A program made the position numbers and the translations under genes. The notes below the pieces were generated by a model. The model did no database searches, was not told the origin of the DNA, and was given only the letters and a program-made list of their open reading frames with translations. This document shows positions 42,673 to 44,400 of a stretch of 44,400 bases of DNA, piece after piece. Every line of letters starts with the position of its first letter. Within the stretch, counting starts at the first letter, position 1. Source of the stretch: Kofleriaceae bacterium (lineage in GTDB: Bacteria; Myxococcota_A; Polyangia; Haliangiales; Haliangiaceae); assembly GCA_022842285.1 (NCBI GenBank), contig JALHPV010000022.1:1-44400 (forward strand). Reading direction: 5' to 3'.

Positions 42673-43974
42673 ATGCGCGCCCTCGCCGTCGTACTCGCCG
42701 CTGTCAGCTGGCTCGGTTTCGCCGCGGCTCCGGCAGCGGCGCAATGCACGACCTGAGTGAATCCCGCGCTCCCGGGCGGAGCGGATGGCGCTGTTGACGC
42801 CCCGGACACCGATGGGTGGCTGGTCTCGTCGCGCCTGGCGTACACGTTCGTGCCCTACGGAGAGCTCCAGCAGGGCACCGCGGATGCACCGAATCCCAGC
42901 GACCTCGCGATCGCGGTTCACCTCGGTTCGCTCCAGGCGACCGCCGTCGCACCGACCGGCACCTCGCTCGACCTCCAGCTTCCGTTCGGGTCCCTGCGCA
43001 CGACGTCGCTGGTCGGCGCACGCACGGATCGCGGGCTCGGAGATCTCGAGCTGCGGATCCGGCAGAGCTCCTCGCGGTGGCTGCGGCGACCGCGCTTGGG
43101 CGCCACCGTTGGTCTCGCCCTGCCGACCGGCGACTACGTGGCGCGCAGTGGCGCCGCGAACCTCCCGCCCGAAGCGGTGACGCTCGCGCTGGGGCGCGGG
43201 ACCGTCTGGCTCATTGGCGAGGCCGATGCGCAGGTCGCGATCGCGACCCGCGGCTCCGTGTTCACTCAGCTCTCGGGACGAGCGCCGCTCGGTCGCACGA
43301 GTGATGACTTCTCGTGGGGAGCCGAGCTGCGCGCGAGCGTGGGGGGCACCTTCGTCGCCTCGAGCCGCTGGTCGCTCCTCGGGACGGTCGACCTGCAGTG
43401 GCGAGGAGGGGCGACCGAGCCCGACCCCTTCTCGAGCATGCGGCTCGAGAGCGCGAATGCGGGCGGCGTGTGGTTCACGGCGAGCCCCGCGGTGCGGTGC
43501 GCCGTCACATCCGAGCTCGCGATCACGGCCGGCGCGCGGCTCGCCCTCGCCGCCGATGTCACCGGCAATCAACTCGTCCCGCAGGCCGGTGGCTTCGTGG
43601 CCCTCTCGCTGTCGCGGGCGGTGGCCTCGCCGCCGGCAGCTCGTCGGTCCGAGGAACCGGTGGCGCGCGCACCCACCGGGCGCATCGTCGTCGTGGACTA
43701 CTGGGCCACGTGGTGCAAGCCGTGCGAACAGATCGACGCCGACCTGCGTGCGGCCGAGTCCCGCTGGGACGACGTGCAGATCGAGCGGGTCGACGCGACG
43801 GAGTGGCCTGATCCCGCCGCGCCTGCCCTTCCCATCGGGGCGAGCGGCCTACCGGTGGTAGAGATCTATGATGCGAGGGGGCAGCGAACCCACTTGCTGG
43901 TTGGTACCGATGCCACCCGTGTAGTCGAGATCGTCGACTCGATCCGGTCGTCCCCGAAAGGAATCACACCATGA
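42673..43974 (+). CDS. Putative selenoprotein: secreted beta-barrel with N-terminal CxxU and C-terminal thioredoxin domain
   Basis: A 433-residue protein if the in-frame TGA at 42754-42756 is read as Sec28. The N-terminus MRALAVVLAAVSWLGFAAAP is a clear signal peptide with cleavage near AAA|QC. The next residues are Gln-Cys25-Thr-Thr-Sec28-Val-Asn-Pro, giving a Cys-x2-Sec pair. Residues ~30-320 alternate hydrophobic and polar and look like an outer-membrane barrel (LVSSRLAYTFVPYGELQQG). The last ~105 residues form a thioredoxin domain with WATWCKPC (Cys348, Cys351) and cis-Pro394 in GLPVVEIYD. Starting at the GTG after the TGA would lose the signal, so it is rejected. A SECIS-like hairpin follows the TGA, and the end overlaps the next gene as ATGA. 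Confidence 0.8.
42767..42783 (+). promoter_or_regulatory. SECIS-like hairpin for the first selenoprotein
   Basis: Beginning 10 bases after the TGA, CGCTCC and GGAGCG form a 6-bp stem around the loop CGGGC. GG is in the loop at +18/+19 from the TGA. Bacterial SECIS elements have a short stem-loop with a conserved G near the start of the loop at about this distance, and bind SelB. The geometry is identical to that at 44248-44264. Confidence 0.72.
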
Positions 43975-44400
43975 AGCTCGCCCTTACCTCCTCGCTCCTG
44001 ATCTCGCTTTCGGTCATGGCCTTCGCCTGCGGAGGCACCCCCAGCTCTGATCCCGACGGCGTCGGAAGCGGCGAGCCCGACGCGCCGATCGCGATGATCG
44101 ACTCGAGCATGACCTCCGACCGACCGGCGTGGATGCTCGAGGATGTCCAGCCCGAGTCACCGCGCGCAGGGCAGACGTACGGCCTCGACACGTTCGGCAA
44201 CAAGACCGTTGTCGTGGTCTTGCTGGAAGGGTTTTGAAGCGCCTGTCGGTCCCAGGCTGGGACCATCGATGCACTGGTGACGGGGCTGCGCGACGACGGT
44301 TACCCCGTCGAGCTCGTGGTCCTGTCGGACGCGAACGCGACGGATTTCGTCGGGAGAACGGCGGTGCCGATCTTCCGCGATCCATCGGGGACGCGGATGG
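43971..44400 (+). CDS. Putative selenoprotein: thioredoxin-fold lipoprotein with UxxC (partial, runs off window)
   Basis: The frame opens with a lipoprotein signal (MKLALTSSLLISLSVMAFAC; Cys20). After a linker rich in Asp/Ser/Pro comes GNKTVVVVLLEGF. A TGA at 44235-44237 follows as Sec89, then Ser-Ala-Cys92-Arg-Ser-Gln. The frame continues open to the window end for 163 bases with clear thioredoxin-fold character: GYPVELVVLSDANATDF and the cis-Pro133 of TAVPIFRDPSG. The Sec-x2-Cys pair lies at the start of the expected helix after the first core strand, as in thioredoxins and peroxiredoxin-like redoxins. The ribosome site GAAAGGA precedes the ATG, which overlaps the previous stop as ATGA. Confidence 0.82.
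44248..44264 (+). promoter_or_regulatory. SECIS-like hairpin for the second selenoprotein
   Basis: Beginning 10 bases after the TGA, GGTCCC and GGGACC form a 6-bp stem around AGGCT; the closing A-T can add a seventh pair. The 17-base unit has the same length as the core of the E. coli fdhF SECIS and shares AGG at the start of the loop (recalled knowledge). Confidence 0.78.

Follow-up and report, generated by a model that had tools for sequence, protein, structure and literature searches.

A 2026 catalogue counts 119 prokaryotic selenoprotein families and subfamilies (PMC13188914). The outer-membrane selenoproteins that it names are the FCYXU type of TonB-dependent receptor (NF049945) and the GSU2204/MtrB-PioB-like barrel (NF041027). 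Its Table 1, as excerpted, also holds a 'Redoxin family protein' (PF08534, motif UxxC), which by its description belongs to the same broad U-x-x-C redoxin class as the lipoprotein reported below. In the cited portion of the GOS survey, a Sec family called 'Prx-like 2', also with a U-x-x-C motif, has low similarity to the N-terminal region of selenoprotein P (PMC2398784). Two further groups come close. The NCBIfam model NF053656 (redoxin_TUGYCR) describes TUGYCR-motif thioredoxin-fold (seleno)proteins with a U/C-x-x-C redoxin domain, and the TlpA/ResA/DsbE thiol-disulfide oxidoreductases have a thioredoxin fold with a C-x-x-C-type site in the envelope.

We analysed a window of 44,400 nucleotides (the whole stretch of DNA under study), which ends with two genes that each have an in-frame TGA. 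The original prediction had recognised one of them, a thioredoxin-fold lipoprotein read through its TGA. This reading is supported and incomplete, as the lipoprotein gene comes second in a pair whose upstream member, also with an in-frame TGA, had been missed. We consider it probable that the pair forms an operon encoding two outer-envelope selenoproteins, and these may act together as a thiol/selenol relay. The features of the region are as follows.

42673..43974, plus strand: barrel-thioredoxin gene with predicted Sec (433 aa), whose stop TGA overlaps the lipoprotein start (ATGA)
42754..42756, plus strand: in-frame TGA, predicted Sec28, in the C-x-x-U pair that directly follows the signal peptide (AQ-CTT-U-VNPALPGG)
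42767..42783, plus strand: SECIS-type hairpin CGCUCC-CGGGC-GGAGCG; loop starts 16 nt after the UGA
43675..43920 (approximate), plus strand: C-terminal thioredoxin domain of the barrel protein, with WATWCKPC; Pfam Thioredoxin 35.2 bits vs 23.5
43971..44400, plus strand: predicted Sec-containing redoxin-like lipoprotein gene; 143 codons in the window
44235..44237, plus strand: in-frame TGA, predicted Sec89, in the U-x-x-C active site GF-U-SAC
44248..44264, plus strand: SECIS-type hairpin GGUCCCA-GGC-UGGGACC; tri-loop starts 17 nt after the UGA

The lipoprotein frame opens at the ATG at 43971, runs for 88 codons to the TGA at 44235-44237, where standard ORF calling ends, and continues with 54 sense codons to the end of the window. 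These coordinates confirmed that the TGA falls in a thioredoxin-like active site, that the frame stays open after it and that usual gene finding halts there. Read through the TGA, the product is MKLALTSSLLISLSVMAFAC...TVVVVLLEGF-U-SACRSQ...AVPIF, in which MKLALTSSLLISLSVMAFAC holds a signal peptide followed by a lipobox Cys, as in a bacterial lipoprotein. The lipobox pattern was also present in 10/10 near relatives, in agreement with the proposed location in the envelope. The chain had been described as cut off by the window end, which is also the end of its contig (C22, 44400 bases); the remainder was found on another contig of the same genome, C343 (L047). Bases 1-113 of C343 overlap the last 113 bases of the window with 3 mismatches, all of them synonymous in the lipoprotein frame. 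On C343 this frame meets no early stop and runs 50 residues beyond the window edge before it stops, which supplies the C-terminus and gives a complete protein of ~193 aa. Strain variation could explain the split between C22 and C343: the C343 copy with its three synonymous differences may be a strain variant that broke the assembly. Downstream of the lipoprotein, C343 encodes another exported protein, which by eye resembles a D-Ala-D-Ala carboxypeptidase.

An open frame past the TGA is little proof by itself because the DNA is GC-rich; the comparison with relatives raises the case of the lipoprotein above chance. Searching 317 genomes of the class, we obtained 44 match rows in 34 genomes, from which 30 loci were read (29 fetched and the window), the own-genome fragment on C343 being treated apart. 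Thirteen weaker or second-copy rows were left out of this count, among them three with one TGA and one weak row with two. Codon 89 is TGA in 19 loci (11 of the near clade and 8 distant ones) and Cys in the other 11. Hence every locus carries one or the other at the position singled out by the original prediction, and all of them keep the second Cys of the motif. The homologues do not end at the TGA. The frame past it is kept in the relatives, and within the near clade the mismatch rates at the three codon positions are alike before (0.26/0.16/0.46) and after it (0.25/0.18/0.44). The Pro of AVPIF, taken from the outset for the cis-Pro, is invariant at the proposed place in the family. On the redoxin-family tree 6 Sec/Cys changes are needed, only 2 of which are forced by well-supported branches. 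In a separate search for related loci, the window lipoprotein as query found no match, and the lipoprotein alignment found 8 loci. Seven are Cys forms of the family, because the alignment search reads U as a Cys codon; Plesiocystis, Enhygromyxa and Polyangiaceae are named among these Cys-form relatives, and the eighth locus (L071, weak, E 7e-5) was left out. Second redoxin copies with an in-frame TGA occur on G093:C214, G246:C17 and G249:C11, in genomes that already have one. By these comparisons, the UGA of the lipoprotein gene is very probably read through as Sec, and we hold it to be highly probable that both UGA codons, at 44235 and at 42754, are decoded as selenocysteine.

The RNA after the lipoprotein TGA gave a consistent result. 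The 41-nt stretch from the window folds with a minimum free energy of -14.8 kcal/mol into a SECIS-type hairpin. We observed a hairpin whose G[G/U] tri-loop is closed by CCA/UGG in 19/19 TGA loci and in 0/11 Cys loci. Its loop starts 17 nt after the UGA in 17 of the 19 TGA loci and 25 nt after it in L031 and L036 (genus g87), where the hairpin lies 8 nt further downstream in another reading frame with the CCA-GGU-UGG core kept. Such a shift points to conservation of the RNA rather than of the peptide. Shuffling of synonymous codons favoured the hairpin in the window (p = 0.0005) and in several relatives, the p values of the other TGA loci ranging from 0.0005 to 0.16. In an alignment of 17 of the 19 TGA loci, from which L031 and L036 were left out for their shifted hairpin, 93.3% of the stem cells pair, compared to a shuffle mean of 89.2% and to at most 55.5% when the stem is slid. 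Two doubly changed pairs were present in this alignment. Against dinucleotide shuffles the window stretch reaches a z-score of only -1.18, which counts against the hairpin, and Rfam has no model that fits it.

By its sequence, the lipoprotein is a predicted Sec redoxin of the selenoprotein-P-N-domain kind and a sister group of NF053656. The redoxin core expected past the TGA was detected by Pfam Redoxin (PF08534, cut-off 26.6 bits), which the truncated window protein passes narrowly with 27.2 bits; the core of L018 falls below the cut-off at 24.3. At E <= 0.1, each of the 30 family members has matches to Pfam AhpC-TSA and Redoxin. NF053656 is the top-scoring NCBIfam model for 9/9 family proteins scanned, at scores below its cut-off of 100 bits: 29.3 for the truncated window protein, 38.1 for the full-length L018 and 76.5 for the best, L031. 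The window clade has GFUSACR instead of the TUGYCR of the model name. Pfam SelP_N (PF04592, cut-off 23.2) gave 12.4 bits for the window and 18.9 for L018, and six distant family members, which share the U-x-x-C motif, scored 45.2-62.9. Animal selenoprotein P has a Sec-rich C-terminus, which the window lipoprotein lacks; the latter is a bacterial lipoprotein with one predicted Sec. A structure model of a Cys member of the family (36% identical to the window lipoprotein, which itself was not the protein modelled) reached a pLDDT of 92.9 and shows a thioredoxin fold nearest to the DsbE-/ResA-/TlpA-type, with GPX folds among its Foldseek matches. Unlike the described TlpA/ResA/DsbE proteins, the window lipoprotein would have Sec at the first position of its site and is paired with a predicted Sec barrel-thioredoxin protein. 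We regard the redoxin half of the locus as a new subgroup within a kind already described.

In the upstream gene, the TGA lies near the N-terminal end of the protein. The barrel ORF has an apparent start at GTG 42757, and the in-frame TGA at 42754 immediately precedes it. A clean signal peptide lies 5' of this TGA (MRALAVV...PAAAQ-CTT-U-VNPALPGG), and the product is probably an exported outer-membrane barrel, as judged from its signal peptide and its distant relatives. The label 'barrel' leans on these relatives because the barrel part in the window has no Pfam match at E <= 1 (Phenol_MetA_deg, PF13557, cut-off 22 bits, included) and the structure model of the window protein made without an alignment is unusable (pLDDT 38.8). 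The distant members L089 and L132 pass PF13557 with 35.9 and 27.3 bits against 22, and the sole PDB match to the window barrel part is 4rl8 (E 0.0075). The C-terminal thioredoxin domain scores 33-42 bits (Pfam) in barrel relatives.

The TGA of the barrel gene is present in 11/11 near-clade loci, all of which also have the hairpin CGCUCC-CGGGY-GGAGCG with its loop at 16 nt. The barrel alignment matched 88 genomes in a class-wide profile search. Counting only loci above 200 bits, we obtained 25 full-length loci, namely 11 CTTU, 13 U-x-x-U and 1 CTTC; the weaker rows, which include G210 (UAAU), G083 (one TGA, motif unresolved) and ordinary barrels without TGA, were not counted. From 64 rows of a phylum sample, 20 barrel loci picked for strength and variety were read, and seven longer stretches were taken for their neighbours. 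Thirteen of the 20 have C-x-x-U, 3 U-x-x-U and 4 C-x-x-C (16 Sec, 4 Cys), and a thioredoxin-like domain was found in 10 of the 12 tails read. The exchange of UGA for Cys is seen in the barrel gene as well, in G254 and in 4/20 phylum loci, and the protein is conserved to either side of this codon. No relative of the barrel was found in the plasmids searched. The distant U-x-x-U barrels L084-L087, L089 and L091 have a His-rich linker before the thioredoxin domain, which is absent in the window clade.

A SECIS-type hairpin follows the TGA in the 11 near-clade loci and in all U-x-x-U loci aligned. Codon shuffles of single sequences gave p values of 0.028-0.585 over 24 Sec loci; most were not significant, and we therefore counted them against a stand-alone SECIS claim for the barrel gene. 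In the U-x-x-U alignment (16 rows, 14 distinct), a pair of the stem changes from U-A to C-G or G-C with both sides changing together, a compensatory and synonymous change that in most rows falls on third positions of Leu and Gly codons. The alignment holds 5 doubly changed cells, a number reached by 0/500 shuffles.

Among known selenoproteins, NF049945 and NF041027 resemble the barrel family in being outer-membrane barrels with Sec. However, they are other barrel families, and neither was among the matches for ten barrel-family proteins scanned against NCBIfam, in which no model reached its cut-off. The PF13557 barrels differ in that the barrel family adds a Sec pair and a thioredoxin tail. 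Table 1 of the catalogue, as excerpted, has no matching entry and none with the layout of an N-terminal U/C-x-x-U/C and a C-terminal thioredoxin (PMC13188914), and we recognised no description of the family among open-access journal papers. We tentatively propose, with slightly less than even confidence, a phylum-wide undescribed selenoprotein family of barrels with an N-terminal diselenide-capable U-x-x-U or C-x-x-U and a C-terminal thioredoxin, whose operon in the window clade, with a SelP-N-like Sec lipoprotein, would relay electrons by means of selenium at the outer membrane or across it.

The two genes are closely linked in the near clade. They are adjacent in 12/12 near-clade genomes (the 11 TGA forms and the Cys form G254), and the window barrel as query gave strong matches in exactly those 12. 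The genes overlap by ATGA or similar in 6 of the 12. G254, which is 99% complete and has no convincing tRNA-Sec, has Cys in both genes. In the wider phylum the barrel gene is followed on its own strand by a redoxin in 7/19 genomes, there without a TGA; this adjacency was taken from profile coordinates, the barrel being read in all seven and the redoxin motif in two. Next to the U-x-x-U barrels of six distant genomes we saw no redoxin, and by eye the neighbours of these six have no gene in common. The pairing is therefore not universal, and the two proteins need not always cooperate.

The genome of the window has the machinery for Sec insertion, with tRNA-Sec at 74.8 bits, SelB at 301.4, SelA at 532.6 and SelD at 317.5, all above the curated cut-offs, and ARAGORN concurs on the tRNA-Sec. 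Two equal-scoring tRNA-Sec genes lie ~7 kb apart in the same orientation (G000:C163 3030-3125 and 10027-10122; L014). For the redoxin family, a tRNA-Sec of at least 60 bits was found in 17/19 TGA genomes vs 4/11 Cys genomes (Fisher p 0.009, kinship ignored); one further Cys genome, G225, was dropped from the 2x2 table as ambiguous (50.7 bits, match at a contig end). Few pairs were available for a kinship-aware comparison. The two TGA genomes without tRNA-Sec, which count against the Sec reading, are 73% and 77% complete. For the barrel family, a tRNA-Sec of at least 60 bits was present in 12/13 U-x-x-U genomes of the class and in 17/19 genomes of the phylum. Nor is TGA simply reassigned, because it is the ordinary stop of the upstream barrel gene in 8/11 TGA-bearing operons.

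These data led us to a model in which the two proteins would face each other on the periplasmic side of the outer membrane and form a thiol/selenol relay, a proposal that we regard as evenly balanced. The barrel protein would present a C-x-x-U at its mature N-terminus and a thioredoxin C-x-x-C at its C-terminus, and the U-x-x-C of the thioredoxin-like domain of the lipoprotein would be the substrate-facing site. There, the Sec would attack an oxidised substrate (a disulfide or similar), and the Cys three residues on would resolve the intermediate by closing an Se-S bond. The thioredoxin and the N-terminal C-x-x-U of the barrel protein would give reducing equivalents to the lipoprotein or hand them on in the direction of the barrel. 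Sequence alone does not distinguish between a disulfide, a peroxide and a metal as the substrate.

Two of these substrates correspond to alternative functions, both of which we hold to be unlikely. The pair may handle soft metals (Hg, Ag, Cu or As, for example), with the U/C-x-x-U/C pair, together with the His-rich linker in distant members, binding the metal at the mouth of a channel and the redoxin reducing or releasing it. U-x-x-U is in principle a strong soft-metal ligand, and the linkers of the distant members fit such a role. The catalogue also has, in the part cited, a U-x-x-U metal-binding protein family (PMC13188914). However, the window clade lacks the linker, the six distant loci have by eye no neighbour for metal transport or resistance, and every near-clade member has two thioredoxin-like sites of the ordinary redox type (C-x-x-C and U-x-x-C). 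The other alternative makes the lipoprotein mainly a peroxidase of the Prx/GPX kind that guards the outer membrane and is reduced by the barrel-thioredoxin protein. It agrees with the AhpC-TSA and Redoxin matches of all 30 members, with the GPX folds among the Foldseek matches and with the name Prx-like given to related U-x-x-C families in the cited part of the GOS survey (PMC2398784). However, the nearest folds are ResA/DsbE-type reductases, a U-x-x-C with a resolving Cys is the arrangement of a reductase, and in the excerpted catalogue Sec peroxiredoxins have T-x-x-U and GPX-like proteins U-x-x-T (PMC13188914).

Far less probable than either is that the TGA at 44235 is a true stop, leaving an 88-residue lipoprotein and, beyond it, a decayed gene or an unrelated open frame. 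The end of standard ORF calling at this codon is what speaks for a stop; against it, the frame beyond is conserved in 30/30 loci read, a Cys codon takes the place of the TGA in 11 of them, and a hairpin follows every TGA. With readthrough as the preferred reading, ordinary gene calling truncates both genes at their UGA, so that the lipoprotein loses its redox domain, and the barrel protein its signal peptide and Sec pair. A conserved redox pair is therefore invisible in annotated genomes. If the proposal is true, it would add an outer-membrane barrel family with one or two Sec, would place the selenoprotein-P N-domain fold in a bacterial setting, and would make a route of thiol/selenol redox power to the outer membrane testable.

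Copy number of the barrel varies among the genomes searched. Genomes of family f36 (e.g. G360, G390 and G430) have up to four barrel-family matches each, and in G430 Sec and Cys forms of the barrel occur side by side.
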